From contig NZ_CP042806.1 in the NCBI RefSeq assembly GCF_008000815.1, positions 4,526,001-4,590,000 of the forward strand: DNA of 64,000 nt, given 5' to 3'. Numbering within the stretch: position 1 is the first letter of the stretch; every line of letters starts with the position of its first letter. A model generated the notes under the pieces. That model had not been told where the DNA came from and ran no database searches. It worked only from the letters and a program-made list of their open reading frames with translations. Made by a program: the position numbers and the translations under genes. This stretch comes from Terriglobus albidus (lineage in GTDB: Bacteria; Acidobacteriota; Terriglobia; Terriglobales; Acidobacteriaceae). Shown here piece by piece: positions 4,151 to 36,330 of this stretch.

Positions 4151-4190
4151 CGGGTGCCCCACCCTCGCAACGCTAGGGTGGGTTCGATGG
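4151..4190. repeat. Left 40-bp inverted repeat (REP) flanking the RAYT gene
   Basis: It starts CGGGTGCCCCACCCTCGCAA and is an exact reverse complement of 4663-4702. It is itself a hairpin: CCCACCCT...AGGGTGGG around a 9-base loop. It has the form of REP sequences that flank RAYT genes. Confidence 0.88.
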
Positions 4191-4221
4191 CATACAAGCG
4201 CGGTTAACCTACAATCTCCTC

Positions 4222-4653: not shown

Positions 4654-4662
4654 AGTCTCGTA

Positions 4663-4702
4663 CCATCGAACCCACCCTAGCGTTGCGAGGGTGGGGCACC
4701 CG
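4663..4702. repeat. Right 40-bp inverted repeat (REP) flanking the RAYT gene
   Basis: Exact reverse complement of 4151-4190 over 40 bases; hairpin CCCACCCT/AGGGTGGG. It begins 10 bases after the transposase stop codon. Confidence 0.88.
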
Positions 4703-5864: not shown

Positions 5865-5963
5865 TAACCATTTATGCCTCGCTGAGCATCCCGGAAGGAG
5901 CGTGCCGCGGCGTTTTCATTGCGGAAAACGCCTACAACTGCACCCACGGAGAAAATTGCTCTA
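5865..5963 (+). repeat. MITE-like element, copy 2 (left end degenerate)
   Basis: The core CGGCGTTTTCATTGCGGAAA and the right end GGAGAAAATTGCTCTA (5948-5963) are clear; the left terminus is eroded and its position approximate. The terminal CTA (5961-5963) is, on the minus strand, the TAG stop codon of the VWFA-like gene. Confidence 0.75.
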
Positions 5964-6872
5964 TCGCGGCGAAGCCTCCACCATCATTGGCCCACTTACC
6001 TTCGCCCCCTCGGCGGAAATATGGAAGCGTTGCAAACCTTTTCCTCCACCTTCGAACTCCACGCGGTAGGTGTCGTAAAGTGCATCGTTAAACCGCTTGA
6101 GGAACGGGCTGAAGCTGGGAGGATCTCCTGTCCCGAGATAGTAGGCAGTTCCGCCAGTGGAAGCCGCGACATCCGTGAGGTAGTTCTGGCCGCTGAAAGA
6201 CGCCTGCATGCCGCGCATTGCCGCACCGGTGAAGTAGATGGAATAAACTGCGACACCCGCACGTTGCGCATCGCTCTTGGCTGCATCCACATACGGACTG
6301 CTCTGGTTCAGCGGGCTCGTGCTGCCGTTATAGGGATCGACGCCGCTTGTGATCATCAGAACGATATGCGCCTTGCCGTCGGGTTGCCACTTCTTTACGA
6401 AGTCCGAGAGACAGAAGTAGGGACTGGCGCTAGCTCCAGGCAGCGCCTGTGTCAGGCGAATCGCTTTGGCAGCCATATCGTGTTCGGTAGTAAATCCCTG
6501 TTCAGTAACGACACGGCCGTTCTGCATGTAGCCGACGGTCACTGCGACATCCTGGGGCTGGGCTTGAATAAAGCTCTGGATATCACCCAGCATGCGGCCG
6601 AAGCTGCTCTGCAGACCATCATCGATCAGGATTGCCAGCTCCACACCTGTTCCCTGCCCATGCCCTGAGCCGCCAAGAACAGGATTCCATGCGGTGACAC
6701 GGCGATCGTCATCACCAAACTTCACTTTGACCTGAGAGATATCGATACGCGGAGCTTCCGGCCCGCGCTTATCTTCAATGCGCACCAGGGCCGAGGTCGA
6801 GACCGGTCCTTCCACCTGTGCGACCGCGGTAGCGGTCAATACTCCCATCAGCGCGAATCGTAACCAACGCAT
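5961..6872 (-). CDS. Secreted VWFA-related protein
   Basis: Secreted protein of 303 residues. The ATG at 6872 has an AGGAGG ribosome site six bases upstream and opens a signal peptide (MRWLRFALMGVLTATAVAQ). The middle resembles the VWFA-like domain common in Acidobacteriota: LAILIDDGLQSSFG starts the Rossmann-like sheet, then HIVLMITSGVDPY and AGVAVYSIYF. The usual metal-site DxSxS is not intact (DDGLQSS), so metal binding is doubtful. It lies 109 bases downstream of the Oar-type receptor, with a hairpin between. Its TAG stop lies in the end of repeat copy 2. Role unknown; adhesion or envelope protein interaction is possible. Confidence 0.7.
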   Translation of the reverse strand: MRWLRFALMGVLTATAVAQVEGPVSTSALVRIEDKRGPEAPRIDISQVKVKFGDDDRRVTAWNPVLGGSGHGQGTGVELAILIDDGLQSSFGRMLGDIQSFIQAQPQDVAVTVGYMQNGRVVTEQGFTTEHDMAAKAIRLTQALPGASASPYFCLSDFVKKWQPDGKAHIVLMITSGVDPYNGSTSPLNQSSPYVDAAKSDAQRAGVAVYSIYFTGAAMRGMQASFSGQNYLTDVAASTGGTAYYLGTGDPPSFSPFLKRFNDALYDTYRVEFEGGGKGLQRFHISAEGAKVSGPMMVEASPR

Positions 6873-6929
6873 GGCGAACCTCCTGCGGGTTATAAGACGC
6901 GTGAGATGGAGAAAAAGGTACAAAACGTA

Positions 6930-6959
6930 CGAAGGGCCGGAGGATTCTCCGGCCCTTCG
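6930..6959 (-). terminator. Hairpin terminator/attenuator after the Oar-type receptor
   Basis: Stem CGAAGGGCCGG / CCGGCCCTTCG around 8 bases. On the minus strand it is followed by a mixed T-rich tract, so termination may be partial and allow read-through into the VWFA-like gene. Confidence 0.65.
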
Positions 6960-6981
6960 CAACTTACTGATGATTGCAGTG

Positions 6982-13896: not shown

Positions 13897-13934
13897 AAGA
13901 CTCCTCCGTTCCCCCTCGGAACGTTGGCTGGTCA

Positions 13935-14130
13935 CAGTGAAACCGGTCTCCTGACTTTACGCATTCCAGCAGAAAGATTGGGCGTTCCCTTCCCGTCCCT
14001 GAAGAACAGTGAGAAATGGCCGGCTGCTGATCGCCCCTCCTGAAGTGATGCTCCAAGGAGTGACGTGCGCTTACAGTTGCGGGGCAGTGGCGGAATCTCA
14101 CCGCGCTTCCCGAACATTTCACCGCGTCGA
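13935..14130 (-). promoter_or_regulatory. Cobalamin (adenosylcobalamin-class) riboswitch
   Basis: On the minus strand the leader contains the conserved core GGTGAGATTCCGCCACTGCC, then CCCGCAACTGTAAGC, and near the 3' end GTCAGGAGACCGG, which match the B12 box and the flanking conserved stems of the cobalamin family. The end lies about 40 bases before the btuB-like ATG and its SD, so B12 binding would be expected to lower expression of the receptor. Boundaries are approximate. Confidence 0.92.
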
Positions 14131-14247
14131 TTCTCTTAAAACGCAGGGTCAGGGCATGTCTCGCAATTCCCTGATGTCAGGAATTTGTGGAAACATGTGT
14201 ACCCCACGAAGATCACTCGGCACAGTTGCTCGCGTGTATTGCAGATT

Positions 14248-21397: not shown

Positions 21398-21513
21398 TAG
21401 AGCATTTTTCCTGCTGCTGGGTATCCCGGGAGGAGCGTGCAGCGGCGTTTTCATTGAGGAAAACGTCTATAGATGCACAATCCCTGCACTACACCTACAG
21501 GAAAAATACTCTA
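21398..21513 (+). repeat. MITE-like element, copy 3 (116 bp)
   Basis: Termini TAGAGCATTTTTCCTG and CAGGAAAAATACTCTA, core GGCGTTTTCATTGAGGAAAA. TA is present at both ends. The right-end CTA (21511-21513) is the TAG stop of the minus-strand SRPBCC gene. If the element and one TA are removed, the gene would read CGC TAA GCC, so a stop would have been present before insertion. Confidence 0.9.
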
Positions 21514-22008
21514 GCGAGATTTCAGCACCTCATCCATCCGGGCATAGCTGGTCTCCATGCCGTCGGTCATCCCTCCCTGTAGGCTGCCGTCACGAATCTC
21601 CCGAGTCGGATACACGATCTCGGCGCGCATCAGGGTCTCGTCACCCTGAGCTTCAAGAATGTAGGTGAGCTTCTCTTCCGGCCCGATAAAGCCAAGGTCG
21701 AAGCGCTGGTTTGCTGAGAATCCCTTAGGCGCATCGATCGCCATGAAGACGCCGCTTAGCTGCAGTTCCTTGCCATCGCTGCTCTTCCAGTAGAAGCGGA
21801 TTCTGCCGCCGACTCGCAGGTCGACCTCGCAGGCCGGCATGGTCCAGCCTTCAGGACCAAGCAGCCACCGTTGAAGCAGTTCCGGCTTCGTGAGCGTGTC
21901 AAAGACCATGGCGCGTGACGCGGCGAAGGTACGGGTTACGACGATCCCCGTCTCTCCCAGAACGTCGACTGTGGACTTCCCTTTGGTGATTGCCTTGGTG
22001 ATTGTCAT
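21511..22008 (-). CDS. SRPBCC/AHSA1-domain protein, distal of a tandem pair
   Basis: 165-residue START-like (SRPBCC, Aha1-type) protein: VVTRTFAASRAMVFDTLTKP, then RWLLGPEGWTMPACEVDLRV and a final helix TDGMETSYARMDEVL. These domains bind hydrophobic ligands in a deep pocket; function unknown. Its ATG (22008) directly follows the TAG of the upstream paralogue, so translation is coupled. The stop codon lies in the terminus of repeat copy 3. It is third in the arsR operon. Confidence 0.88.
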   Translation of the reverse strand: MTITKAITKGKSTVDVLGETGIVVTRTFAASRAMVFDTLTKPELLQRWLLGPEGWTMPACEVDLRVGGRIRFYWKSSDGKELQLSGVFMAIDAPKGFSANQRFDLGFIGPEEKLTYILEAQGDETLMRAEIVYPTREIRDGSLQGGMTDGMETSYARMDEVLKSR

Positions 22009-22500
22009 CTACTTGCCCTCCATCTCGTTGAGGAGCGCCTCAAGACGCTCGTAACCCATCTCCATGCCGCTGGCCATCGGGCTCTGCATCACCCGCTCCA
22101 GAATCTCCTCAGACTCATAGGTGATCGTCAGCTTCATTACGGTCTGTGCGCCCTGCTCCAGGAACCCGGTCTCGATAATCCCCTGTTTCCCATCCCAGGC
22201 ATCGTCGAACGCCTGGGTGACTCGCATGCGACGCGGAAGATCCAACTCAAGGTATTCACCGCCGAGCCCCATCCGCATGTTGCTCTCCGCGTGAGACCAC
22301 TCCCAGCGGTACCGTCCACCGACACGAAGATCCATCTCGCAGATCGGCATCTCCCACCCCGGAGGCCCAAGAAGCCAGCGGCGGACGTACTCAGGTTGCG
22401 TATTCGCTTTGACCACCAAATCCCGTGGAGCGTTGAAGGAGCGTGTGATGACCAGTTGTTTCGCTCCGAGCCGTTCCTGTGTGAGCTTTCCGAATTGCAT
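22009..22500 (-). CDS. SRPBCC/AHSA1-domain protein, proximal of a tandem pair
   Basis: 163 residues, paralogue of the next gene: VITRSFNAPRDLVVKA, YVRRWLLGPPGWEMPICEMD, and a final MASGMEMGYERLEALL helix. ATG 22500 (MQFGKLTQ) has AGGAG seven bases upstream; the longer frame up to 22608 would overlap the arsR gene in another frame and has no support. The pair arose by tandem duplication, judging from the shared RWLLGPxGWxMPxCExDLRVGG block. Confidence 0.88.
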   Translation of the reverse strand: MQFGKLTQERLGAKQLVITRSFNAPRDLVVKANTQPEYVRRWLLGPPGWEMPICEMDLRVGGRYRWEWSHAESNMRMGLGGEYLELDLPRRMRVTQAFDDAWDGKQGIIETGFLEQGAQTVMKLTITYESEEILERVMQSPMASGMEMGYERLEALLNEMEGK

Positions 22501-22502
22501 TC

Positions 22503-22868
22503 CTATTTCTCCTTCCTTCTCTTTGCTTCTTCCGCTTTCATCTCTTCCAGAAGGCCATCCAGACGCTGGAAGCTTGGCTCCCAGAAACGCCGGAAACCTT
22601 CCAGCCATGCATTTGCCTCCGCCATGGGGCCTCCTTCAATGCGGCTCAGACGCCGTTGCGCATCACGGCCACGCGAGATGAGCCCGGCCTGCTCCAGCAC
22701 CTTCAGGTGCCGCGAGATGGCGGGCTGACTCATGGCGAAGGGCTCGCAGAGCTCGTTGACCGATGCCTCGCCCTGCGCAAGCCGGGCGAGGATCGCGCGG
22801 CGTGTGGGGTCGGCAAGCGCCTGAAACGTGATGTCGAGACGATCGATCGATTCCATTGCCTCTTCCAT
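22503..22868 (-). CDS. ArsR-family transcriptional regulator
   Basis: Winged-helix repressor of about 121 residues: FQALADPTRRAILARLAQGE, then VNELCEPFAMSQPAISRHLKVLEQAGLI and SRGRDAQRRLSRIE wing. No obvious metal-binding Cys cluster apart from a single Cys in NELCEP, so it is probably not a metal sensor. ArsR regulators paired with AHSA1-domain genes are common in bacteria. ATG 22868 (MEEAMES) or ATG 22856 (MESIDRL, with AGAGG just upstream) may be the start; the promoter position leaves only about three bases of leader before 22868. First gene of the operon, ending 3 bases before the next ATG. Confidence 0.9.
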   Translation of the reverse strand: MEEAMESIDRLDITFQALADPTRRAILARLAQGEASVNELCEPFAMSQPAISRHLKVLEQAGLISRGRDAQRRLSRIEGGPMAEANAWLEGFRRFWEPSFQRLDGLLEEMKAEEAKRRKEK

Positions 22869-22877
22869 AGCAATTTA

Positions 22878-22905
22878 TTTATATAACGTAATTGTTATAT
22901 GTCAA
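22878..22905 (-). promoter_or_regulatory. arsR operon promoter with palindromic operator in the spacer
   Basis: Minus strand TTGACA (22905-22900), 16-base spacer and TATAAA (22883-22878), close to consensus. The spacer holds ATATAAC-N6-GTTATAT (22881-22900), a perfect inverted repeat, as expected for an autoregulated ArsR operon. Confidence 0.7.
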
Positions 22906-22932
22906 GCGAAAATTTCGCGCATCATAGAAATC

Positions 22933-23568
22933 ATGGTTCGTCGCTTCGCAGGTCTTGTTCTTCTCTTTGCCGTTCCGGCCTTCTCTCAGACGCTGCATGA
23001 CGTGGCGAAACGCGTCAATGACCACTACAACCGACTCGGCTCGCTGGAGGCGAAGTATACCGAGCGATATACCGGTATGGGGATGAACCGGACCGAAAGC
23101 GGCACCCTGCTTCTGAGGAAACCGGGCAAGATGCGCTGGAGCTACGCCGCTCCTGAGGGTAAGCTCTTCGTCCTGGATGGAAAGAATGCCTACTTCTACA
23201 CCCCCGGTGACGCCCAGGCGCAGAAGATCCCGGCCAAGCAACTGGACGATATGCGCAGCCCGCTGCGGTTTCTGCTGGGCCACACGAATCTCGAAAAAGA
23301 GCTCGACCACCTCAGCATGACCACCTCCGGCGATCGTGCCATCTTCACAGGAGTGCCGAAGGGCATGGAGGACCGTGTAAAGGCGTTCACCGTCACGGTT
23401 ATCGCCGAGACTGGCGCCATCGTCGGTCTGAAGATCGAGGAGCTGGATGGCTCCATCACCGAGTTCAGCTTCAGTTCGCTGAAAGAGAACGTCCCGACTA
23501 GGGATGCCGACTTCATCTTCACACCCCCTGCTGGGGTTGAGGTCGTCTCCGGACTTCCTCCCGTCTAA
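22933..23568 (+). CDS. LolA-like outer-membrane lipoprotein carrier family protein
   Basis: 211 residues with a signal peptide (MVRRFAGLVLLFAVPAFSQ). The LolA-type half-barrel includes LGSLEAKYTERYTG, GTLLLRKPGKMRWSY, EGKLFVLDGKNAYFYTPGD, and the C-terminal ITEFSFSSLKENVPTRDADF. Family members shuttle lipoproteins from LolCDE to LolB across the periplasm; without lolB or lolCDE nearby the exact role is not proven. ATG 22933 was chosen for the signal peptide; the upstream frame would overlap the arsR promoter. Divergent from arsR. Confidence 0.85.
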   Translation: MVRRFAGLVLLFAVPAFSQTLHDVAKRVNDHYNRLGSLEAKYTERYTGMGMNRTESGTLLLRKPGKMRWSYAAPEGKLFVLDGKNAYFYTPGDAQAQKIPAKQLDDMRSPLRFLLGHTNLEKELDHLSMTTSGDRAIFTGVPKGMEDRVKAFTVTVIAETGAIVGLKIEELDGSITEFSFSSLKENVPTRDADFIFTPPAGVEVVSGLPPV

Positions 23569-23598
23569 AACGAAACAAGTCAGGGCAAATGCCGCCTC

Positions 23599-23653
23599 TT
23601 GAACTACGACCTAATTTGTCCTATAAAAATAGGACTGAATATGTCCTAAATAG
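23599..23653 (+). promoter_or_regulatory. Promoter and stacked palindromic operator upstream of the EF-hand gene
   Basis: TTGAAC (23599-23604), 17-base spacer, TATAAA (23622-23627). Overlapping the -10 is GTCCTAT-AAAA-ATAGGAC (23618-23635), followed by a third half-site GTCCTAA (23643-23649) that pairs with ATAGGAC as a second inverted repeat with 7-base spacing. The layout suggests a repressor that can bind as two adjacent dimers. The regulator is not identified; Rrf2-type proteins have somewhat similar AT-centred palindromes, but this is speculation. Confidence 0.6.
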
Positions 23654-23668
23654 AAGGCGGTTTCTCGT

Positions 23669-24526
23669 ATGCGTCGTGCTCTGCCCCTCTCTCTTTTTGC
23701 CCTTCCTCTCACTGTCCTGGCCCAGGGTCCTGGAGGACCGGGTGGCCCCGGCGGGCCTCCGCCGCGCATTGTGCTACAGGCATTGGATACCGATCACGAC
23801 GGCCAGCTCTCTACTGCAGAGATCGCAGCAGCTTCTGCCGGCCTGCTCTCGCTCGATGTAAATCACGACGGCCAGTTGACCTCGCTGGAGTATCTGCCGA
23901 ACCAGGCTGATCCCAAAGCAAACAACGCCGACGAGATGGCTCAGCGCTTGATGGTTTTCGATAAGAATGGCGACGGTGTTCTGACCAAGGACGAGGTTCC
24001 GGAGCGTATAGCAGGCATCTTCGCGCGCGCAGACAAAAACGGCGATGGAAAAATCACCGCCGATGAGCTGAAATCTACCGCCGCAAAGACAGCCGGACCC
24101 AATGGGCGCGTGGAGCGCGGAGCCAATATCACCCGCATGGACCCGATCCTGTCGGCGCTCGATGCCGACCATGACGGCGTCATCTCCGCAGCCGAGATCG
24201 CCGCCGCGCCAACCGTGCTAAAAGCTCTCGACAAAGATGGCGACGGAACCCTTTCCGCAGCCGAGATTCGTATGCGCCAGCAGACACCCGCCGATCGCGC
24301 CGCGCACTTCTTCGAAGAGTGGGATACGAACAAGGACGGCAAGGTCACCATCGAAGAGGCCCCGGAGCGCATGGGACCACAGTTCAGCCAGATCGACACC
24401 AACCATGACGGCGGTATCGATCTGCAGGAAGCAACCACCTACTTCGCCAATATGCCGCAGCAACAGCGCGGACCCCGGCCCGAAGGCGCACCCGAGGGAC
24501 AGCGACCTGATACCCCTCGGAACTAA
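23669..24526 (+). CDS. Secreted EF-hand protein with eight calcium-binding loops
   Basis: 285 residues: signal peptide (MRRALPLSLFALPLTVLAQ), a Gly/Pro linker, then eight EF-hand-type loops in four pairs, for example DTDHDGQLSTAE, DVNHDGQLTSLE, DKNGDGVLTKDE, DADHDGVISAAE and DTNHDGGIDLQE. Each loop has Asp at 1, 3 and 5 and Glu at 12. The C-terminus is Pro/Gln/Arg-rich. Probably a periplasmic calcium-binding or calcium-dependent scaffold. It lies 60 bases before the ApbE-DUF2271 gene on the same strand, so may be in one transcript. Start ATG 23669. Confidence 0.88.
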   Translation: MRRALPLSLFALPLTVLAQGPGGPGGPGGPPPRIVLQALDTDHDGQLSTAEIAAASAGLLSLDVNHDGQLTSLEYLPNQADPKANNADEMAQRLMVFDKNGDGVLTKDEVPERIAGIFARADKNGDGKITADELKSTAAKTAGPNGRVERGANITRMDPILSALDADHDGVISAAEIAAAPTVLKALDKDGDGTLSAAEIRMRQQTPADRAAHFFEEWDTNKDGKVTIEEAPERMGPQFSQIDTNHDGGIDLQEATTYFANMPQQQRGPRPEGAPEGQRPDTPRN

Positions 24527-24586
24527 CTTGGGCGCCAACCGCGTACGGAAGTCAAACTGGTTCGTATAACGAAGAAAGAGGTCTGC

Positions 24587-26065
24587 ATGTCCTTTTACAA
24601 GAACACGGCGCTATTGCTCTGCCTTACCGCTTCTGCCCTGGCACAGAAGCCGGCTACCCACGTCTTTCACTACGACAACATCCTTGGCACATCGATGGAG
24701 CTGAAGCTGCATACGGCCTCCGCCGGTGATACTAACCGCGCAGAAAAAGCTGTCCTGAGCGAGATCGAGCGCGAGAACAAAATTCTCTCCGCCTGGCAGT
24801 CGAACTCCGAATTCTCACGCTGGATGAAGACCCACAACACTCCGGTAAAGGTCTCTCCAGAGCTGCTGGAAGTGCTTGCTCTCTTCGATGAGTATCGTCA
24901 GCAGACCGGCGGAGCTCTTGACCCCAGCGCAGAGACCGCGACACGCCTCTGGAAGCTGGCCGCCGTGGAGAATCGAGTCCCGACGCCGGCGGAACTCAGC
25001 AGAGCAGTCGAGAAGATGCAGCAGCAGCACTGGATCCTGGACAAGGCCCACGGTACTGCAACCCACCTGGATGATGCTCCCGTTGCGCTGAACTCGTTCG
25101 CGAAGAGCTACATCGCCGGCCATGCGGCCGAAAAGGCCCTGACCGCGGGGGCCAATGGCGTTCTGCTCAACATCGGCGGTGATATCGTCGTTCGCGGAGA
25201 CCTGACAGAACGTGTCGCCATCACCGATCCCAAGGCCGCTGCAGACAACGACGAACCCATCGACATGGTCCGTGTAGCCAACCGCACCATTGCCACTTCC
25301 GGTGACTACCGCCGTGGATTCGACATTGGCGGACAGCACTACTCGCACCTGATTGATCCGCGCACTGGCGAGACGGCAGAGAACGTCATCTCGTCGACCG
25401 TCATCGCGAAGGACCCGGCAATGGCGGGCGCACTGGCGACCGCATTCAGCGTGATGCAGCCCGAAGAGTCGAAGAAACTCGCCGCGAAGCTCTCTGGCGT
25501 CGATTACATGCTGGTGCTGCGCGACGGCTCAACGATCACATCTGCCGGTTGGCAGAACCGCGAGGTTCCTCGCCTGGTCACCACCGGGTTTGCACCTGCC
25601 ACAAAGACCGCCGGTCTGGATGTGATGATCAACTTCGAGATCGCGCGCATCGACAGCCCACGATACCGTCGTCCCTACGTCGCGGTATGGGTGGAAGACC
25701 AGGATCACTTCCCTGTCCGCACTCTGGCTCTCTGGTTCGCCAAGCCGCGCTGGCTGCATGAGCTGAAGCAGTGGTACCGCGACGACCAGATGCGCAATAT
25801 GGCCGAAGGTACGGACCTGACCGCCACACTGAGCTCCGCCACCCGCGTCCCCGGAGCCTATACGCTGCGCTGGGATGGAAAAGACAACAGTGGCAAGCAG
25901 GTGAAGCCGGGCAAGCACACCATCCTGATCGAAGCAGCTCGCGAGCACGGTGGCTACGATCTGCTGCGGCAGGAGATCAACCTCGACGGGAAGACCCCGG
26001 CCAAGTTCTCGCTCAAGGGCAAGGCCGAAGTTGGCACGGCAACGGTCGACTACGGAAAGCATTGA
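24587..26065 (+). CDS. FAD:protein FMN transferase (ApbE) fused to a DUF2271 domain
   Basis: 492 residues: signal peptide (to about 19), ApbE flavinyltransferase domain (about 25-330: HYDNILGTSMELKL, ALDPSAETATRLW, ALNSFAKSYIAGHA, NIGGDIVVRG, YSHLIDPRTG), then a C-terminal FlgD-Ig-like domain resembling DUF2271 (about 345-480: VAVWVEDQDHFPVRTLALW, GAYTLRWDGKDNSGKQV). ApbE attaches FMN through phosphoester to Thr/Ser of periplasmic or membrane redox proteins using FAD. DUF2271 commonly travels with ApbE and PepSY proteins in iron-related loci. A PepSY-TM gene follows after repeat copy 4. SD AAAGAGG lies 11 bases before ATG 24587. Confidence 0.9.
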   Translation: MSFYKNTALLLCLTASALAQKPATHVFHYDNILGTSMELKLHTASAGDTNRAEKAVLSEIERENKILSAWQSNSEFSRWMKTHNTPVKVSPELLEVLALFDEYRQQTGGALDPSAETATRLWKLAAVENRVPTPAELSRAVEKMQQQHWILDKAHGTATHLDDAPVALNSFAKSYIAGHAAEKALTAGANGVLLNIGGDIVVRGDLTERVAITDPKAAADNDEPIDMVRVANRTIATSGDYRRGFDIGGQHYSHLIDPRTGETAENVISSTVIAKDPAMAGALATAFSVMQPEESKKLAAKLSGVDYMLVLRDGSTITSAGWQNREVPRLVTTGFAPATKTAGLDVMINFEIARIDSPRYRRPYVAVWVEDQDHFPVRTLALWFAKPRWLHELKQWYRDDQMRNMAEGTDLTATLSSATRVPGAYTLRWDGKDNSGKQVKPGKHTILIEAAREHGGYDLLRQEINLDGKTPAKFSLKGKAEVGTATVDYGKH

Positions 26066-26088
26066 GCTGAAGACGGGGAAGGCTGATC

Positions 26089-26202
26089 TGGAGCGTTTTC
26101 CCTGTTTGCTCGGTATCCCGGAAGGGGCGTGCAGCGGGATTTTCATTACGGAAAACGCCCTATGATGAGGCTCTGGACTAGACCCACAGGGAAAATGCTC
26201 TA
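26089..26202 (+). repeat. MITE-like element, copy 4
   Basis: Left end TGGAGCGTTTTCCCTGT, right end ACAGGGAAAATGCTCTA; core GATTTTCATTACGGAAAACG. It belongs to the CTATGATGAGGCTCTGGACT subfamily, with copy 6. The right TA overlaps the ATG start of the PepSY-TM gene. The left TA has changed to TG. Confidence 0.87.
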
Positions 26203-26840
26203 TGGCAACAATGGTCACACCACCCAAGCGGCCAATCACGATGGCAGTGCGTCTACGAAGGCGCACTGCCATCATCTCGCGCTGGTTGCATATCTATCTT
26301 TCGATGGTCTCGTTCGCCATCGTTCTCTTCTTCTCGATCACCGGCATCACACTCAACCATGCTGAGGCGCTGGGAGGAAAAGAGAAGACCACGGTCACTC
26401 AGGGTGAGCTTCCGCACGAATGGCTGCGTCCCGCGAATGAGGCCGAGCCCGACAAACTAAGGATTGCCGAAGAACTCCGCTCACGCCATAAGTTGCATGG
26501 AGCCGTCTCCGACTTTCGCGTTGATGACAACCAGCTCGAGGTCTCCTTCAAGGGACCTGGGTACGCGGCGGATATCTTCATCGATCGCGACACCAACAAG
26601 TACGACCTGACGGAGACCCGTAACGGGTTCATCGCCGTCATCAACGATCTGCACAAGGGACGTGACACAGGCGCAGCCTGGTCGATGTTCATCGACATCT
26701 GCGCCGCGCTGCTGACGCTGGTTTCATTGACCGGTCTGGTGCTTCTGCTCTTCGTGTATAAGCGCAGAGTCTCCGGCATGATTGTCGCCGCCGCCGGAGC
26801 TTTGATTGCCTATCTGGTCTACCTGCGCTTCGTCCCCTGA
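26202..26840 (+). CDS. PepSY-associated transmembrane protein
   Basis: 212 residues. One TM helix near the N-terminus (WLHIYLSMVSFAIVLFFSITGITLNH), a periplasmic PepSY-like region (about 60-150: FRVDDNQLEVSFKGPGYAA, YDLTETRNGFIAVINDLHKG), then two closing TM helices. PepSY-TM proteins act with flavin or heme in metal (ferric) reduction or as enzyme inhibitors; the His in NHAE and DLHKG are possible heme ligands. The adjacent ApbE points to an FMN-linked redox protein. The ATG at 26202 shares its A with the last base of repeat copy 4. Its 3' end overlaps a convergent gene by 117 bases. Confidence 0.8.
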   Translation: MATMVTPPKRPITMAVRLRRRTAIISRWLHIYLSMVSFAIVLFFSITGITLNHAEALGGKEKTTVTQGELPHEWLRPANEAEPDKLRIAEELRSRHKLHGAVSDFRVDDNQLEVSFKGPGYAADIFIDRDTNKYDLTETRNGFIAVINDLHKGRDTGAAWSMFIDICAALLTLVSLTGLVLLLFVYKRRVSGMIVAAAGALIAYLVYLRFVP

Positions 26841-27908
26841 CGGTTCAGGCGTCGCAGCCTGGGCCGTATAAACACTGGTCACGATAAAGCCCTCCGTCAG
26901 CGGTTGTTCGCCGCGAAGGAGGGCGCGTACCCAGGCAAGAAAGCTTCGCCGCCGAGAGGCAAGTTCAGTCGCCCAGCGCACCTCTTCCTCACTTGCTTCG
27001 CTGACCAGCACCGATCCCAGAACAACATCCTCATGCTGATCGCCGCCGAGGCGTTTCACCACTCCCGTCGCCCACGCAGCCGCCTCCTGATCACGCGGCT
27101 CATAGTAGCCGCGATGGATTCCCTCAGCAATACAGCGAGCGAAGGTCTGCTCCGCTGCATCGAAGCCATTGTTGAGCGTCTGCGGGTCGATGAGCTTGCC
27201 CCCTTGAAAGGCACGATCCGGCACTTTCACCAGGTCTGAGGCCATGGTGTAGTCAGTGCGCATGCACTGCCCGACGGTGGGCAGATAGAAGTCCAGCCGC
27301 AAGATCCAGCGAAGCAGACGCAACGGCTCGGCTTCAAGCGCCACGCAATGAATCGTTGTACGATCCCAGTGGCCGTCCGCCATCAGAACGGCCTCTCTGT
27401 CCTCCGGAGGCATGCGATCCCACAGATCGTGCTTCCGCAGCAGGTCGATGTGGAGACGGCGGGAGAGCACCTCCATTCCCTCCGGGATGGTCTTCTCCTT
27501 GAGGAAGCCCTCGCTTCCGGCGCGATCGACCATGACGGCGAGCAACAGCATCTGCTCCGCAAAGTGCTTACGAATACCCTGTATCTCTTCGGCCGAAGGC
27601 AACGGCTTTTCCTTCGAAGGTGCAATGCTCGGCGGCGTGTCGTCCTGCTTGTTACGGCGATTCAACCACCAGATCACAGGAAGGATGAAAGGAACGATCA
27701 GAATCGCGCCCATACCTACAAGCCAGGCCGTATAAAGGACGCAGAACGCCGGTACGATGAGCAGCACCAGAAACTGCCGCAACCGTTTGCGCGCGCGGCG
27801 ATCCTTACGGGCACGCTTCAGGTCGGCATAGGCCTGCACCCAACTGTGTTTGCCCAGAACGACCTGCCAATAGCTCCGTTTAAAGAGCAGGGCGAAGAGC
27901 GAGTACAT
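26724..27908 (-). CDS. Uncharacterised membrane protein, possibly DUF4272-like
   Basis: 394 residues. A basic N-terminal segment (KRARKDRRARKRLRQ) precedes one or two TM helices (about 45-85), then a mostly helical cytoplasmic part with EDREAVLMADGHWDRTT and LEAEPLRLLRWILRLDFYLP, a pattern that reminds me of DUF4272; this is from memory and unconfirmed. The Gly/Asn/Gln-rich C-terminal tail of about 39 residues is encoded opposite the end of the PepSY-TM gene. ATG 27908 lies 18 bases from repeat copy 5. I do not recognise a function. Confidence 0.6.
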   Translation of the reverse strand: MYSLFALLFKRSYWQVVLGKHSWVQAYADLKRARKDRRARKRLRQFLVLLIVPAFCVLYTAWLVGMGAILIVPFILPVIWWLNRRNKQDDTPPSIAPSKEKPLPSAEEIQGIRKHFAEQMLLLAVMVDRAGSEGFLKEKTIPEGMEVLSRRLHIDLLRKHDLWDRMPPEDREAVLMADGHWDRTTIHCVALEAEPLRLLRWILRLDFYLPTVGQCMRTDYTMASDLVKVPDRAFQGGKLIDPQTLNNGFDAAEQTFARCIAEGIHRGYYEPRDQEAAAWATGVVKRLGGDQHEDVVLGSVLVSEASEEEVRWATELASRRRSFLAWVRALLRGEQPLTEGFIVTSVYTAQAATPEPSGDEAQVDQIGNQSSGGGDNHAGDSALIHEEQKHQTGQ

Positions 27909-27925
27909 CGCTCTATGGTAGCGGC

Positions 27926-28041
27926 TAGAGCATTTTCCCTGTAGGTGTCGTGTAGGGCTTCTGTATCTATGGGCGTTTTCCGCAATGAAAACGCCGCTGC
28001 ACGACCCTTACGGGATATCCAGTAAAAGAGAAAATGCTCTA
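27926..28041 (-). repeat. MITE-like element, copy 5 (116 bp)
   Basis: Termini TAGAGCATTTTCCCTGTA and AGAGAAAATGCTCTA, core GGCGTTTTCCGCAATGAAAA. TA at both ends. The right-end CTA (28039-28041) is the stop codon of the FG-GAP gene on the minus strand. The reconstructed empty site reads AAG TAG CCG in that frame. Confidence 0.9.
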
Positions 28042-29265
28042 CTTCGCGGACTTTGTCAGGTTCTCCGCCAGGAAGAGGCCGGATTTTCCAGCACTGATGA
28101 TGTCCAGGTCACCGTCACCATCAATATCAACGACCACTGTCTGGACACCCGCGCCCATGCGTCCGCCGTAGTCGACGATGTGACGAATCCATTCCACCCC
28201 GCCGTTCCTTGCGTTCGCTTGCATCCCGGGCAGCTTACGCCACTCGTACCAGTAGATACCGACAGGATCGCGCTCGCCGGGGTCGTTGCCGTTGTGCGCA
28301 AAGTAGCGTTTTCCTGCGACGAAATCAATCTGCCCATCGCCGTTGAGGTCCACGGGAACAACCTCATGCGCCTGTGACCAGGAAGCGTCAATGATGTGCT
28401 GCGTCCAGGTTCCATCCGCATTCTGTTCGTACCAGGCGAAGCCATAGTCATGGGCCATACCGGCAACGATGTCCTTGCGGCCATCACCGTTGACATCGAT
28501 CAGGTGAAGCTGACTCATGGAGATTCGCCCGTTGTTGACGGGGACCACCGACGCATCCTGGCGCATCCCTGCGGGAAGAATCGGCTTCGCGCCCCAGTCA
28601 TTGGCATGGAAGGTCCACTCCGCTGAACTATTGATGTCCGCAGACGCTTCCAGCCATCCACGCGGTGTGAGGATATCGGTGCGGCCATCGCCGTTCAGAT
28701 CGCCTGCGCCGATCCCATGACCGTAGCTCTGGTGCGAGACCGTGTGCTTCACCCACTTGTGGTCTTTGAGTTCGAACCACGCGGCCGGAACATTCTCCCG
28801 ATCGAATTCAGGCAGAAGTTCTTCCGCCTTGCCATCGTTGTTCAGATCGACAAGGAAAGCAAACTCAGTAGGGCCGCTGTTGTCGATCTCCGTCACCTTC
28901 CATGCACCGCCTGCCTTGCCCGGATTCTTCAGCCAGACGATGTTGTGCGCGAAGTAGCTGCACTGGATCACGTCGGGCCAACCATCGCCGTCCACATCCA
29001 TGACCTGGTCGCTGAAGTTGTCGATGTAGCCGCTGGAGTAGTCGATCTGGCGCAGCGGATGCTTTACCCAGCGCGGTCCCTCGTACCAACTCTCGCCGGC
29101 GACGATGTCGAGCTTGCCGTCCTTGTTCAGGTCCGCCACGGCGACAGTCTCGCCATACCCGGGGTCGATCATCGTTGTACGAAAGGCAATATCCGCAGGT
29201 CGGCTGGCAGCATGAGCTACGGCCACCATGGCCGCCATACCAAGGACGCACAACAGCTTTTTCAT
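28039..29265 (-). CDS. Secreted FG-GAP/VCBS repeat beta-propeller protein
   Basis: 408 residues with a signal peptide (MKKLLCVLGMAAMVAVAHAA) and about seven FG-GAP/VCBS repeats bearing the calcium-binding pattern DLNKDGKLDIVAG, DVDGDGWPDV, DLNGDGRTDIL, DVNGDGRKDIVAG, DLNGDGQIDFVAG, DIDGDGDLDI. It probably folds as a seven-bladed propeller in the periplasm or at the surface. ATG 29265. It follows the GH92 gene on the same strand with 45 bases between, which fits a shared role in polysaccharide or glycoprotein binding. Confidence 0.88.
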   Translation of the reverse strand: MKKLLCVLGMAAMVAVAHAASRPADIAFRTTMIDPGYGETVAVADLNKDGKLDIVAGESWYEGPRWVKHPLRQIDYSSGYIDNFSDQVMDVDGDGWPDVIQCSYFAHNIVWLKNPGKAGGAWKVTEIDNSGPTEFAFLVDLNNDGKAEELLPEFDRENVPAAWFELKDHKWVKHTVSHQSYGHGIGAGDLNGDGRTDILTPRGWLEASADINSSAEWTFHANDWGAKPILPAGMRQDASVVPVNNGRISMSQLHLIDVNGDGRKDIVAGMAHDYGFAWYEQNADGTWTQHIIDASWSQAHEVVPVDLNGDGQIDFVAGKRYFAHNGNDPGERDPVGIYWYEWRKLPGMQANARNGGVEWIRHIVDYGGRMGAGVQTVVVDIDGDGDLDIISAGKSGLFLAENLTKSAK

Positions 29266-29310
29266 CGCGATGGAATCTCCCTGAGTTTCAGCGGAGGAAT
29301 TATTCCATTC

Positions 29311-31605
29311 CTAGTACGCAGCCGTCGACATCGAGTAAGGACGAGCCGAAGGCGTACGGCCAAACTCCTTGTTGGGCGTGCTCTGCATCGTGAAGTGAAA
29401 CTCGCCGCCGGCAAGCAGCTCGTCATGACGCAGGAAGACCCGGGTCAGTGGCTGACGATTCAATGAAACGCTACCAACGTAGTCACCGCTTCCCTCCTTC
29501 ACAATGCGCAGCGTCTTTCCGTTTGGCAAGTGCAGGGTAGTTTCATCAACGAACGGGCGGCCCAAGACATATTCATTGCTTCCCGGAGCCACCGGATAGA
29601 AGCCCATCGACGTAAACAAGAGCCACGCTGACATCTGCCCAAGATCGTCGTTTCCGACAAGGCCATCGGGAGCGGGACGATACTGCGACTCGATAATCTG
29701 CTTCAGCCGCTCCTGCGTCCGCCACGGCGCGCCAGCGTAGGCGTAGAGATACGCCAGATGATGGCTGGGCTCGTTGCCGTGGATGTACTGTCCAATCATG
29801 CCTGCGATGTCTTCAACGTCGGCATATTGTTTGGGATCGACCTTGGCGTCGAACATGGCATCGAGCTTCTGGATCAGCTTGTCCTCTCCGCCAAGCAACT
29901 GGATCAAGCCGGCCTCGTCCTGCGGCTGATACCAGGAGTACTGCCAGGCATTGCCCTCGGTGAAGCCGCTGCCATTGCCCGCCTTGGCCGGATCGAAGGG
30001 CTCGCGAAAACTGCCGTCTGCAAGACGGGGACGGACAAAGCCGCTCTTTGCATCGAAGACATTGCGCCAGTAGGCTGCACGCTTGGTGAACTCCTGCTCG
30101 ATTTCCTTCTTCCCCATGGCATGGGCCATCTGTGCGATGGTCCAGTCATCAAAGGCATACTCCATGGTCTCCGATGCAGACTCGTCATCGTGATCGACAG
30201 GCACATAGCCGCGATCGATGTACTCGCCCACTCCCTCATACTGGCGATAACGAGCGCTGGCGACCATGGCGTTCAGCGCCGCCTCGGCGTCATACCCTCG
30301 AATGCCCTTTCTGTACGCATCGGCAAGGATCGGCACGGCGTGGTAGCCGATCATGCACCATGTCTCCAGCCCGGCAAACTGCCAGACAGGCAGAATCCCA
30401 TACGGGCTCTGCTGCTGCGAGGCGATGAGAGAGTGGACAACGTTATTCGTACGCTCTTCCGGCTGCAGCAGCGTCATCAGTGGCTGCTCGGCACGATAGG
30501 TATCCCACAACGAAAAGGTAGAGACAAACTCCCAGTTCTTCGCCTGGTGCACCTCTTCATCCGGACCGCGGTAGCGGCCATCCACATCCATCGCAGTGCT
30601 GGGAGCCATCAGCGCGTGATAGAGCGCGGTGTAGAGATTCTTCTTCATCGCCTCCGTTCCGGAGAATTCCACACGGCCCAGCTCCTTCTCCCAGGCTGCA
30701 CGAGCCTGTGCGCGGACACCATCGAAGTCGAAACCCTTGACTTCGGCATTCAGGTTGGCGATCGCTCCCTCTTCGCTGACCGTCGAAAGCGCCACCTCTA
30801 CTACCAGAGGGCGGGCAAGCTGTCCGAAATCGAAGGCAGCGACCAGGCCGCGGCCTTCCTTGAATGGAACGTCCGTCGCATCGCGGCGCACCCCGGAGAA
30901 GCCGAGATACTCCTGCGGCACCGGCTCCACATTGCGGAAGAGATGCCCGGTCACCGGCGCCGAGAACCGCATCGCGAAGTACAACTGGCGCGCCGGAGCC
31001 CAGCCACGCGTCTCACGCATCCCTGTCACCAAGCCACCTTCGCGAAGGCGAACCCGCGACCACATCACCTTTCCCGCATAGCTGTAGATCGACGAACGCA
31101 GATCGACGACCAGGTGCGCCGGCTTGTCCGATGGAAACGTGTAACGATGCACACCGACACGGGTTGTCGCGGTCAGCTCCGCGCGCACCTGCGGGGTATC
31201 GAGCGTCACGGCATAGTAGCCAGGCTCGGCCGTCTCGCTCTTGTGCTGGAAGGTCGAGCGGTAATCAGCGGGCTCGAGCTTCACCTCGCCTGCCTCTGGA
31301 GTAATCAGCACATCGCCAAGGTCGGAGTGGCCTGCACCCGAGAAGTGCGTATGGCTGAAGCCGAGGATCGAGCTGTCTTCATAGCGATACCCCGCAGCCC
31401 ACTTGTAGCTCTGCTTGAAGGGCTTGATCTCGGTATCGGGGCTGAGCTGCACCATGCCGAAGGGCACAACTGCTCCGGGAAAGGTATGTCCGTCGGGGCC
31501 GGTGCCGATCATCGGATCAACCGAGCGAAAAGCTGCAGATTGGGCTCCCGCAATTCCACCAAGGCATACCGCCAGCAAAGCCGAACGAACCAGAAGACTC
31601 TTCAT
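29311..31605 (-). CDS. GH92 family alpha-mannosidase
   Basis: 764 residues with a signal peptide (MKSLLVRSALLAVCLGGIAG). GH92 hallmarks: VDPMIGTGPDGHTFPGAVVPFGMVQLSPDT at the N-terminal beta-sandwich (given here in part: DPMIGTGPDGHTFPGA), FSHTHFSGAGHSDLGD, and in the (alpha/alpha)6 barrel WDTYRAEQPL, GNAWQYSWYQP, EPSHHLAYLY and GNDDLGQMSAW. Family enzymes are calcium-dependent exo-acting alpha-mannosidases, often alpha-1,2. ATG 31605 was chosen for the signal peptide; the longer frame runs into repeat copy 6. Probably operonic with the FG-GAP gene. Confidence 0.94.
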   Translation of the reverse strand: MKSLLVRSALLAVCLGGIAGAQSAAFRSVDPMIGTGPDGHTFPGAVVPFGMVQLSPDTEIKPFKQSYKWAAGYRYEDSSILGFSHTHFSGAGHSDLGDVLITPEAGEVKLEPADYRSTFQHKSETAEPGYYAVTLDTPQVRAELTATTRVGVHRYTFPSDKPAHLVVDLRSSIYSYAGKVMWSRVRLREGGLVTGMRETRGWAPARQLYFAMRFSAPVTGHLFRNVEPVPQEYLGFSGVRRDATDVPFKEGRGLVAAFDFGQLARPLVVEVALSTVSEEGAIANLNAEVKGFDFDGVRAQARAAWEKELGRVEFSGTEAMKKNLYTALYHALMAPSTAMDVDGRYRGPDEEVHQAKNWEFVSTFSLWDTYRAEQPLMTLLQPEERTNNVVHSLIASQQQSPYGILPVWQFAGLETWCMIGYHAVPILADAYRKGIRGYDAEAALNAMVASARYRQYEGVGEYIDRGYVPVDHDDESASETMEYAFDDWTIAQMAHAMGKKEIEQEFTKRAAYWRNVFDAKSGFVRPRLADGSFREPFDPAKAGNGSGFTEGNAWQYSWYQPQDEAGLIQLLGGEDKLIQKLDAMFDAKVDPKQYADVEDIAGMIGQYIHGNEPSHHLAYLYAYAGAPWRTQERLKQIIESQYRPAPDGLVGNDDLGQMSAWLLFTSMGFYPVAPGSNEYVLGRPFVDETTLHLPNGKTLRIVKEGSGDYVGSVSLNRQPLTRVFLRHDELLAGGEFHFTMQSTPNKEFGRTPSARPYSMSTAAY

Positions 31606-31615
31606 CTCGCCATCG

Positions 31616-31726
31616 TAGAGTGTTTTCCCTGTTGCTGGGTATCCCGAATGGGCGTGCATCGGCGTCTTCGTCGCGGAAACGCCCTATGATGGAAGCTCTG
31701 GACTGCACCCACAAGAAAACGCTCTA
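31616..31726 (+). repeat. MITE-like element, copy 6 (111 bp)
   Basis: Left TAGAGTGTTTTCCCTGT, right ACAAGAAAACGCTCTA, core GGCGTCTTCGTCGCGGAAAC. TA at both ends. It shares CTATGATGGAAGCTCTGGAC with copy 4 (subfamily II). It lies between the divergent GH92 and mutarotase-like genes, so it occupies their promoter region. Confidence 0.85.
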
Positions 31727-31744
31727 ACCGTTCGCCGCGCTACC

Positions 31745-32770
31745 ATGGGCACGATGAAGTCACTGATGCTCGCCCTGGCTGCTCCCCTTCTCGCCGTGCA
31801 CATAGCTTCCGGACAGTGCCCCACCGACGCCGCGCCGGATGCTCCGCGCGTCACGATCACCAACGGCAAATTGACCGCCGTGGTGCATCTGCCGGATCCG
31901 CAGCGGGGCTACTATCGCTCAAACCGTTTCGACTGGAGCGGAAGCATCGCCTGCGCCACATTGAATGGCCATACCTTCTGGGGACAGTGGTTCTCTCACT
32001 ACGATCCGCTAGGCAACGACGCAATTACCGGTCCGGCGGAAGAGTTCCGCTCCCCCGATGGGGCCGAGCCCGGTTATAACGAAGCCGCGCCCGGAGGTCT
32101 CTTCGTCAAACTCGGCGTCGGTGTGCTGCGCCGGCTCGACGAAAAGCCCTACAGCTTCGGCGGAAAGTATCCCATCGTCGACTCCGGCACCTGGACGTCG
32201 ACCTCCAACCGCAACTCGGTCACCTCTACCCAGGTGGTGCATTCCACTATCGGCTTCGACTACCGCTACACCAAGACGGTGGAGATTGACCGGAAGGCTA
32301 ACATCATCCGCCTCCACCATAGGCTGACAAACCTGGGCAAGCGCCCCATTGACTCCGCACTCTACAATCACGTCTTCCTTCAACTGGACGGGAAAGGTCC
32401 CGGTCCTGGCACCAGTGTCACGCTAGCCTTTGCGCCAACCGTGGAGACGCCGTTCCCTGACTCAGTCTCCGTCGAAGACAGGACCATCCGCTTCCTTGGT
32501 CCTCCACCGAACGGAAGAGCCGTTGGCTCCTACCTGACTGGCTACACCCCAGGCACCCCCAACGCTATCGAGGTCATCGACACTACTACCGGTTTCCGCG
32601 TCCGGCAAAAGACCGATGCGCCCATCGTGAAGTTCTATTTCTGGGGGCATAGCCGGGCCACCTGTCCGGAGGCCTATATCGCCATCCACGTAGCTCCCGG
32701 CAAAACCCAGCGCTGGACGACCGAATTCGCACTGGAGGCGCCGGCAGCGGCATCTCCCGCTCCGCGATAA
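31745..32770 (+). CDS. Secreted galactose-mutarotase-like beta-sandwich protein
   Basis: 341 residues, signal peptide (MGTMKSLMLALAAPLLAVHIASG; MKSLM at residue 4 could be the start). The body is all-beta with YYRSNRFDWSGSI, the GPAEEF segment, KTVEIDRKANIIRLHHRLTN and an NHVFLQLDG strand, resembling the aldose-1-epimerase/galactose-mutarotase sandwich. The catalytic His/Glu pair cannot be assigned with certainty, so it may be carbohydrate-binding only. Divergent from GH92. ffh follows after 14 bases, possibly on the same transcript. Confidence 0.65.
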   Translation: MGTMKSLMLALAAPLLAVHIASGQCPTDAAPDAPRVTITNGKLTAVVHLPDPQRGYYRSNRFDWSGSIACATLNGHTFWGQWFSHYDPLGNDAITGPAEEFRSPDGAEPGYNEAAPGGLFVKLGVGVLRRLDEKPYSFGGKYPIVDSGTWTSTSNRNSVTSTQVVHSTIGFDYRYTKTVEIDRKANIIRLHHRLTNLGKRPIDSALYNHVFLQLDGKGPGPGTSVTLAFAPTVETPFPDSVSVEDRTIRFLGPPPNGRAVGSYLTGYTPGTPNAIEVIDTTTGFRVRQKTDAPIVKFYFWGHSRATCPEAYIAIHVAPGKTQRWTTEFALEAPAAASPAPR

Positions 32771-32784
32771 ACTGAAAAGCGACT

Positions 32785-34167
32785 ATGTTTGAGAATCTCC
32801 AGGAAAAACTGCAGCGCGCGTTTAAGAACCTTCGCGGTCAGGGGACCGTCAGCGAAGAGAACATCAGCGAGGCGCTGCGCGAGATCCGCCTTGCCCTGCT
32901 CGAGTCTGACGTCAACCTGAACGTCACCAAAGACCTGATCGAGCACATCCGCGAAAAGGCGCTCGGCCAGCAGGTAGCGACGGCCCTGTCGCCGACAGAG
33001 CAGGTTATCAAGATCATCCACGGCGAGCTGGTCGAACTGCTGGGCCGCGACACCGCCCGCTTCAAGTTCGCCTCGCAGCCGCCTTCGGTCATCCTGATGG
33101 CCGGCCTGCAGGGTTCCGGTAAAACCACCACCACCGGCAAGCTGGCCCAGTGGCTGAAAAAGGGCGGCCACCGCCCCATGCTGGTCTCGGTCGACGTCTA
33201 TCGTCCCGCCGCCCGCGAACAGCTCGCCGTTGTCGCCAAGTCCATCGGCACCCAGCTCTATACCGGTAATGTCGGCGCCGACGAAGCCGGAACGCCCCTG
33301 GTGCTGCGCCTGGCTAAAGAAGCCAAGCGCGACGCCGCCAACTTTGGCTGCGACATCCTACTGGTCGATACCGCCGGACGCCTGGGCATCGATGAAGAGC
33401 TGATGGGCGAGATGTCAGAGCTGAAGAAGCTCCTCAATCCCTCTGAGATCCTCTTCGTCGCCGACGCCATGACCGGCCAGGACGCCGTGAACTCGGCCAA
33501 GGCCTTCCACGACCGCCTCGGCATCACCGGCGTGGTGCTCACGAAGATGGACGGTGACGCCCGCGGAGGCGCGGCCCTGTCGATCCGCCAGGTCACCGGA
33601 GCTCCGGTCAAGTTCATCGGTACGGGTGAAAAGCCCGACGCCTTCGAGCCCTTCCACCCCGACCGTATTGTCAGCCGCATCATGGGCATGGGTGATATTG
33701 CCACCCTGCTGGAGCGCGCCGAAGAGAAGCTCGACCGCGGCAAGGCTGAGGCCTTCGCCAAGAAAGCGCTCGCCGGCGACGGATTTTCGCTGGAAGACTT
33801 CCGCGATCAGTTGCGGCAGATCAAAAAGCTCGGCTCCATGCAGTCCATCCTGAAGATGCTGCCGTCGGTCGGTCCGTTCCAGGGCCTGCAGCAGGCCGCC
33901 GGCCAGGTGGACGAGAGCCAGTTCACCCGCGTGGAGGCGATCATCAACTCCATGACGGCGAAGGAGCGGCTCAACCACGAGATCATCTCCGGCAGCCGCC
34001 GCAAGCGCATCGCTGCAGGCAGCGGCACCAGCGTGCAGGAGGTCAACAACCTGCTGCGCCAGTATGCGCAGATGCGGAAGATGTTCAAAGGCATGGGCGC
34101 CGGCGGCGGTAAGATGCAGCGCCGCCTGATGAGCCAGATGGGCAGCATGGGACGCTTCGGGCGCTAG
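32785..34167 (+). CDS. ffh: Signal recognition particle protein Ffh
   Basis: SRP54-type GTPase of 460 residues: N domain (1-90), G domain with GLQGSGKTTTTGKL (G1), DVYRPAAREQL, DTAGRLGIDEELM (G3), TKMDGDARGG (G4), and a Met-rich M domain (about 300-460, ending MSQMGSMGRFGR) that binds 4.5S RNA and signal sequences. With FtsY it targets membrane proteins co-translationally. The stop TAG (34165-34167) begins with the left TA and G of repeat copy 7; the reconstructed empty site still reads TAG, so the protein is not truncated. Confidence 0.97.
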   Translation: MFENLQEKLQRAFKNLRGQGTVSEENISEALREIRLALLESDVNLNVTKDLIEHIREKALGQQVATALSPTEQVIKIIHGELVELLGRDTARFKFASQPPSVILMAGLQGSGKTTTTGKLAQWLKKGGHRPMLVSVDVYRPAAREQLAVVAKSIGTQLYTGNVGADEAGTPLVLRLAKEAKRDAANFGCDILLVDTAGRLGIDEELMGEMSELKKLLNPSEILFVADAMTGQDAVNSAKAFHDRLGITGVVLTKMDGDARGGAALSIRQVTGAPVKFIGTGEKPDAFEPFHPDRIVSRIMGMGDIATLLERAEEKLDRGKAEAFAKKALAGDGFSLEDFRDQLRQIKKLGSMQSILKMLPSVGPFQGLQQAAGQVDESQFTRVEAIINSMTAKERLNHEIISGSRRKRIAAGSGTSVQEVNNLLRQYAQMRKMFKGMGAGGGKMQRRLMSQMGSMGRFGR

Positions 34168-34276
34168 AGCATTTTTCCCGTAGGTGTATTGCAGGGCTTG
34201 TGCATTGGCGTTTTCCGCAATGAAAACGCCAATGCGCGCTCCTCCCGGGATACCCAGTAACAGGAAAAAGGCTCTA
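34165..34276 (-). repeat. MITE-like element, copy 7 (112 bp)
   Basis: Termini TAGAGCATTTTTCCCGTA and AACAGGAAAAAGGCTCTA with TA at both ends. The core hairpin is extended to a perfect 14-bp stem, GCATTGGCGTTTTC (34202-34215) and GAAAACGCCAATGC (34222-34235). The left end forms the ffh stop codon. Confidence 0.9.
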
Positions 34277-36215: not shown

Positions 36216-36330
36216 TAGAGCATTTTTCCTGTAGGTGTAGGGCAGGGCTTGTGCATCTATGGGCGTTTTCCGCAATGAAAACGCCGCTACACGCTTCTCC
36301 GGGATACCCAGCAACAGGAAAAATGCTCTA
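36216..36330 (-). repeat. MITE-like element, copy 8 (115 bp)
   Basis: Termini TAGAGCATTTTTCCTGTA and AACAGGAAAAATGCTCTA, a near-perfect match to the consensus, with core GGCGTTTTCCGCAATGAAAA and TA at both ends. It ends 11 bases before the ATG of the dienelactone hydrolase-like gene, so it must form part of that gene's leader or promoter. Confidence 0.92.

Follow-up and report, generated by a model that had tools for sequence, protein, structure and literature searches.

A palindromic repeat supplying stop codons to neighbouring genes in Terriglobus albidus

Element copies and gene ends

The window analysed here is a 64-kb stretch of the Terriglobus albidus genome (positions 4526001-4590000 of the source genome G000, a single contig of 6.41 Mb), and it contains nine copies of a near-palindromic element of about 116 bp with the ends TAGAGCATTTTYCCTGT. 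Among the named ffh matches listed, the top-scoring one came from an Acidobacteriaceae MAG (74% identity), a placing at family level. In four of the nine copies, the terminal TAG of the element is also the stop codon of the adjoining gene. The copy at 34165-34276 (+) supplies the stop (34165-34167) of ffh (SRP54; 32785-34167, +), and the copy at 27926-28041 (+) supplies the stop (28039-28041) of an FG-GAP repeat gene (28039-29265, -). The copy at 21398-21513 (-) ends an SRPBCC/AHSA1 gene (21511-22008, -) at 21511-21513. These three genes were recognised by their Pfam matches. The fourth copy (5879-5963, -) has lost its distal end, and its TAG at 5961-5963 is the stop of a conserved gene, the open reading frame at 5961-7055 (-), hereafter the 5961 gene. 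Both the number of copies and the four shared stops agree with the original prediction, and the stops were seen in the sequence and in the open reading frames. The VWFA-like label given earlier to the 5961 gene was not confirmed, as a Pfam search with 303 amino acids of its product returned no match. Four stops among nine copies had been called unlikely by chance; against the expected share of 8.6% derived below, the p value was about 0.005.

Removal of the element and one TA gave the reconstructed empty sites CGC-TA-AGCC for the SRPBCC gene, AAG-TA-GCCG (gene sense) for the FG-GAP gene and CGC-TA-GAGA for ffh, exactly as predicted. The empty site of the 5961 copy was unreadable in the window because of the lost end, and was supplied by relatives. 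The other copies included three off any stop codon, at 36216-36330 (+; both ends intact), 31616-31726 (-) and 26089-26202 (-; left end diverged). The copy at 921-1073 (-) was diverged and that at 1110-1190 (-) was truncated at one end. An Rfam search of the window at gathering thresholds gave no match to the element.

A wider sample of G000 comprised 99 evenly spaced 20-kb stretches, the window and 20 stretches adjoining it, amounting to 2.334 Mb in 93 blocks (36% of the genome) with 1771 called genes. Counts below refer to this sample unless otherwise stated. Eighty copies served to build a hidden Markov model, which then detected 133 in the sample; the 112 with both ends were used and the 21 with a missing end were dropped. 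Extrapolation from 133 copies in 2.33 Mb gave about 365 copies genome-wide. The consensus from the wider sample was 116 bp long, with perfect 17-bp inverted ends, and folding gave a strong hairpin for each strand (-55.1 and -56.0 kcal/mol, z -6.4 and -6.9). The element is thus short, bounded by terminal inverted repeats and present in high copy, as are bacterial miniature inverted-repeat transposable elements (MITEs).

The edge TA of the element coincided with the TA of a TAA or TAG stop in 41 of the 112 both-ended copies. One copy served two genes, giving 42 element-borne stops. The non-coding TAs of the sample consisted of 1141 stop TAs and 12152 intergenic TAs, so the expected share was 8.58% (p=2.7e-16). 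A wide count of this kind had been suggested together with the prediction, and it bore out the excess. A smaller earlier count had placed 35 of 96 both-ended copies at stops, and two of eight further G000 copies were at stops as well. The share was similar in three relatives, with 14 of 38 copies at stops (G008 6/15, G012 5/13, G015 3/10); these copies were chosen by end variants or best similarity, not randomly, and may include shared insertions. No copy lay inside a called gene (0/112), and only two overlapped a gene by more than 3 nt. A test for an effect of local G+C found a slight excess (0.545 vs 0.527, p=0.036).

The excess might be attributed to persistence, with insertion at random TAs and longer retention of stop-borne copies whose deletion would lose the stop. 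Selection acts on a TA end that doubles as a stop codon; in the smaller count, TA bounded 61 copies on both sides and 29 of these were at stops, as against six of the other 35. However, if the model score is taken as a rough clock, the stop share showed no age trend: it was 10, 9, 11 and 11 of 28 by score quartile, about the same in the youngest quartile as elsewhere (medians 114.0 and 114.9, p=0.73). This argues against stop-borne copies merely being kept longer, and we consider persistence a very improbable cause.

Asymmetric target and empty sites

The target of the element is asymmetric. All copies were oriented with the A end (the end followed by AGGTG) to the left. Among the 71 copies away from stops, A or G followed the right TA in 65, while C or T preceded the left TA, the mirror position, in only 30. 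C or G occupied positions -3 and -2 in 58 and 59 of these copies. A symmetric target would give about equal numbers at the purine and mirror positions, and the paired McNemar comparison was 39 vs 4 (p=3e-8). The same imbalance was found in the 72 copies with TA at both ends (64 vs 36, p=8e-6) and in the 38 copies of the relatives (33 vs 21, p=0.017). The target therefore reads (C/G)(C/G)N-TA-(A/G), and the orientation of the element is fixed relative to it. The purine belongs to the target, since it is present in copy-free sites in relatives (those of the SRPBCC gene, the 5961 gene, ffh and L371:7929, a locus in G008). The outer 17 bp of the two consensus ends are identical, yet the target is asymmetric, which implies an enzyme that tells the two ends apart.

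TAA and TAG consist of TA and a purine and fit the motif in the gene sense. Consistent with this, the A end contacted the gene at 31 of the 42 element-borne stops and the other end at 11. A motif derived from the non-stop copies only predicted a ratio of A end to other end of 6.1 to 3.0, and 30 to 11 was seen when one stop was counted per copy. The original prediction held that the TA of an existing TAA or TAG had been the target and that the G of the element makes the stop TAG. Both claims were upheld: A or G follows TA in 39 of the 42 reconstructed empty sites, and 39 of the 42 stops are TAG, the remaining three being TAA. The purine after TA is largely set by the motif of the element, so only the copies inserted the other way round provide an independent test of a pre-existing stop. 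In these copies the purine was found in 9 of 11, compared with 30 of 71 at the mirror position of the non-stop copies (p=0.009). For A-end copies the purine was dropped as independent proof, because the motif itself demands it. As to stop usage in general, 1704 sampled genes with a called stop comprised 645 TAG, 553 TAA and 506 TGA. TAG was the commonest, and both-ended copies accounted for only 39 of the 645 TAG stops, as traced.

Related genomes provided sites without the element. A search of 61 genomes, G000 included, gave matches in six. The element was abundant in four genomes of one genus (G000, G008, G012 and G015), while G010 held two partial matches and G035 one match of 28 bases. The close relative G017 (ffh 97% identical) gave no element match. 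At seven of the eight comparable stop-borne loci, the corresponding codon in an element-free relative is TAA or TAG, indicating that protein ends were mostly kept; this orthologue comparison had also been proposed as a check on the prediction. The eighth is the copy at 4516344, where G008 has TGA at the equivalent codon according to a by-eye reading of a diverged stretch. A ninth stop-borne copy (4499416) was left out, as only one of its flanks was matched.

The ffh gene is the best sampled of these loci. In 15 of the 16 relatives in which its 3' end could be read, the gene stops right after the FGR tail (11 TAG, 3 TAA, 1 TGA), and element-free G008 reads CGC TAA. In L224 there are 118 codons of read-on, and one more ffh locus runs to the contig edge. 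For the SRPBCC gene, the predicted CGC TAA GCC was actually read in G008, and G012 has CGC TAG; the G017 protein (56% identical) ends one residue earlier. The 5961 gene ends in CGA TAA in G008, while G012 and G015 bear copies there and stop at TAG. The FG-GAP gene of G017 reads AAG TAG, and G008 keeps TAG next to a shortened copy. Where G000 has its copy at 4518889, G008 reads TAG, and the G017 stop lies one codon earlier. In the other direction, at the positions of the G008 copies L371:7929 and L371:11408, G000 reads TAG and G017 reads TAA; the left edge of the L371:11408 copy carries an additional G. The otherwise empty G008 site of 4518889 (L371 near 5470) reads TAGAGC, which could be the remnant of an excised copy.

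One TA is present in the empty orthologues and two in the filled sites of the SRPBCC gene, the 5961 gene (filled in G012 and G015), ffh and L371:7929. This target duplication is again a MITE feature. Away from stops, the copy at 4512186 corresponds to a two-base site (CG) in G008, and that at 4498442 was matched on one flank only.

Gene edges and the origin of the stop overlap

A directional target combined with survival at gene edges, rather than recognition of stop codons, probably explains the overlap. The repeat would be a non-autonomous, MITE-like palindromic element that inserts at TA, leaves TA on both sides and keeps a fixed orientation to the motif. A TAA or TAG ending a GC-rich gene would present such a target in the gene sense. 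Insertion would then convert either stop to TAG at the same codon with the protein unchanged, because the first base of the element after TA is G. Copies inside genes would be purged by selection and mid-intergenic copies would be fewer, so that survivors would pile up at gene edges: at stops, in the next 25 nt or so and, less so, just before genes. The copy positions, the TA at both ends, the retained stop codon, the asymmetric motif and the excess over random TAs are observed. We infer that transposition was the cause and that selection, rather than a preference of the enzyme, lies behind the gene-edge excess.

Insertion rates were calculated for 110 copies, 40 of them at stops, as two block-end copies were unplaceable and dropped. 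The figures for gaps of up to 250 nt are preferred, since longer ones may contain genes that were not called. In these gaps the raw rate per 1000 TA was 41.9 at stops, 20.3 in the 25 nt downstream and 7.3 at greater distances. Counted without weighting, the odds ratio of stop TAs to those 1-25 nt downstream was 2.16 (p=0.006). These values are what would be expected if the transposition machinery recognised gene ends or stops as such, through stop-region sequence or the state of transcription or translation, making stops a true safe harbour. When exposure was weighted by the motif, the rates per 1000 units became 15.0 at stop TAs, 10.0 at 1-25 nt downstream, 3.5 further away and 7.0 in divergent gaps. 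The ratio of stop to 1-25 nt fell to 1.49 (p=0.20), or 1.20 (p=0.52) over all gaps, and stratification by tetranucleotide gave an odds ratio of 1.35 (p=0.35). Rates were also raised at TAs up to 25 nt from a gene start (motif-weighted, tandem 7.0 and divergent 11.8). With no significant ratio left after weighting, most of the excess could be attributed to a gene-edge effect and the motif. The original view of the stop codon as the target thus stands as to the large excess over random non-coding TAs and needs refining as to specificity, since TAs 1-25 nt past the stop were hit about as often once the motif was corrected for. Convergent gaps of up to 250 nt also favour recognition: of their 15 insertions, 11 were at stops and 4 lay beyond the stop within 25 nt of a 3' end, and the 353 TAs further out had none (0/1996 over all gaps). 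Weighing these results together, we regard recognition of gene ends as unlikely.

Several points weigh against directional targeting with gene-edge survival. The empty convergent interiors are the first: these gaps have no promoters to harm, and simple tolerance does not predict the lack of insertions more than 25 nt out. The motif alone predicts 9.1 stop insertions where 41 were seen, and the remainder would have to come from survival at gene edges. Only 72 of the 112 both-ended copies retained TA on both sides, and C or T follows TA in three of the 42 reconstructed empty sites. The genes were called with a home-made codon model, not taken from an annotation. An autonomous element with these ends was not found in the 36% of G000 or in the transposase-family searches described below. 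Finally, the claim that protein ends were unchanged holds for most loci and fails for the FG-GAP gene in element-free G012 and G015, which have CAG at that codon and end four codons later. Six more distant relatives (71-74% identical) extend 6-7 residues past the aligned end of this protein.

Selection for copies after stops might also contribute, if the transcribed hairpin stabilised or ended mRNAs as proposed for repetitive extragenic palindromes (REPs). Both strands of the consensus fold strongly, many copies lie downstream of genes, and stops were hit most densely in the shortest convergent gaps (7 insertions at 57 sites). However, 21 copies are in divergent regions, at 7.2 per 1000 TA compared with 6.6 in tandem intergenic regions. 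Neither orientation was preferred (13 to 11) among the non-stop copies up to 25 nt from a 3' end, and the consensus has no U-run after the hairpin. Hairpin selection therefore seems quite improbable.

More speculatively, the directional target may itself be adaptive. An enzyme telling the two palindrome ends apart would insert one way into SSN-TA-R, and the motif and terminal G might form an evolved safe-harbour device that makes stops harmless sites and has allowed the element to multiply to hundreds of copies in a genome crowded with genes. We hold this only as a tentative possibility.

Mobilisation and related elements

Among the 176 element ends in the sampled 36% of G000, seven were away from a copy edge, and none of these was paired 300-4000 nt apart. 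A search of the four element-bearing genomes for element ends with another interior gave 63 matches; the 30 loci cut out all held an element-model match (29 both-ended), and none was new. Two long pairs of terminal inverted repeats (382-383 bp) were rejected as a separate element. They are element copies (G000 4498175-4498556 and 6351188-6351570) in which a second repeat of about 270 bp, with ends CTAGGGYGTGTCATCAAACTC, is nested. Head-to-tail arrays of two or three copies were observed in relatives (L209, L340 and L371:12512-12856), which suggests that the element inserted into its own ends or was duplicated from them.

IS630 targets are symmetric. IS630 (PF13358) matches were found in G000 (2), G008 (2) and G015 (1), with none in G012 and G017. 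The IS630 ends in G008 and G000, approximately TTTATTGATTCCTG, are unlike those of the element, and on this ground IS630 was set aside as a candidate mobiliser. Only one of the five IS630 loci, L316, showed a weak likeness (3 mismatches) to an element end, located outside the insertion sequence. The asymmetric target and the different ends in G008 and G000 also argue against an IS630-type (RUP-like) MITE. Y1_Tnp matches numbered 22 (G000 7, G008 10, G012 1, G015 4; G017 none). None of the 22 is framed by the element, and the Y1 genes were likewise set aside as candidate mobilisers. Five loci have a copy within about 1.5 kb and none has copies on both sides, and the inverted repeats around the 22 matches are unlike the element by eye. 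DDE_Tnp_1 matches occurred in G000 (15) and G012 (4) and were absent from element-bearing G008 and G015. The searches of these families identified no mobilising enzyme. A replication-strand bias of the IS200/IS605 kind was not seen with origin and terminus guessed from the GC skew of the sample: the non-stop copies were 35 leading and 36 lagging, and all 133 copies were 75 to 58 (p=0.17).

No title or abstract among those listed describes this element or such an asymmetric TA target, with subscription journals mostly outside the scope of the search. Tn7 uses one attachment site with a 5-bp duplication, whereas the element occupies hundreds of sites and duplicates a 2-bp TA. Like the element, Tn7 inserts in one orientation. 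A further likeness is insertion just past the end of a gene with the protein spared (PMC2918618). Among bacterial MITEs with TA termini, RUP, Correia/NEMIS and ERIC resemble the element, according to a review (PMC2229807), in a length of about 100-200 bp, terminal inverted repeats, 5'TA3' termini, target duplication and a long stem-loop. Compared with that account by features rather than sequence, the element differs in its asymmetric target, its fixed orientation and the lack of a parent insertion sequence in our searches.

Palindromic repeats that supply TAG stops have been reported before as GTAG-type REPs. For the two species diagrammed by Di Nocera et al. (2013, PMC3733652), those between convergent genes lie mostly less than 20 bp from 3' ends. 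Like the element, they are high-copy palindromic repeats whose termini supply stops; they are, however, 20-40 bp long with a GTAG tag, while the element has 116 bp and TA at both ends. A GTAG REP or REPIN identity was rejected, because no conserved G precedes TAG (A26 C20 G15 T10 in the 71 non-stop copies). The arrangement of REPs around RAYT genes was also rejected, with copies flanking none of the 22 Y1_Tnp genes in the four genomes. The same source mentions TIRtrons, or TIRYTs, which are tyrosine transposases bounded by terminal inverted repeats and include a group from Acidobacteria (PMC3733652). The Y1 transposases of the four element-bearing genomes, mostly flanked by inverted repeats and absent from G017, are similar in this respect; their repeats differ from the element, as noted above. 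Where the supply of TAG stops by repeats was an anecdote, the present analysis gives a target rule that has been measured and is backed by empty sites from close relatives. The results illustrate how a mobile element can multiply to hundreds of copies while doing proteins little harm, and they suggest a putative mobilising enzyme that reads an asymmetric target.

The window also contains a Y1/RAYT-like transposase gene (4222-4653, PF01797) within 4151-4702; the perfect inverted repeats of 40 nt on either side of it are not related to the element. Rfam matches in the window were an Acido-Lenti-1 RNA at 53974-54018 (-) and a cobalamin riboswitch at 13924-14136 (-).

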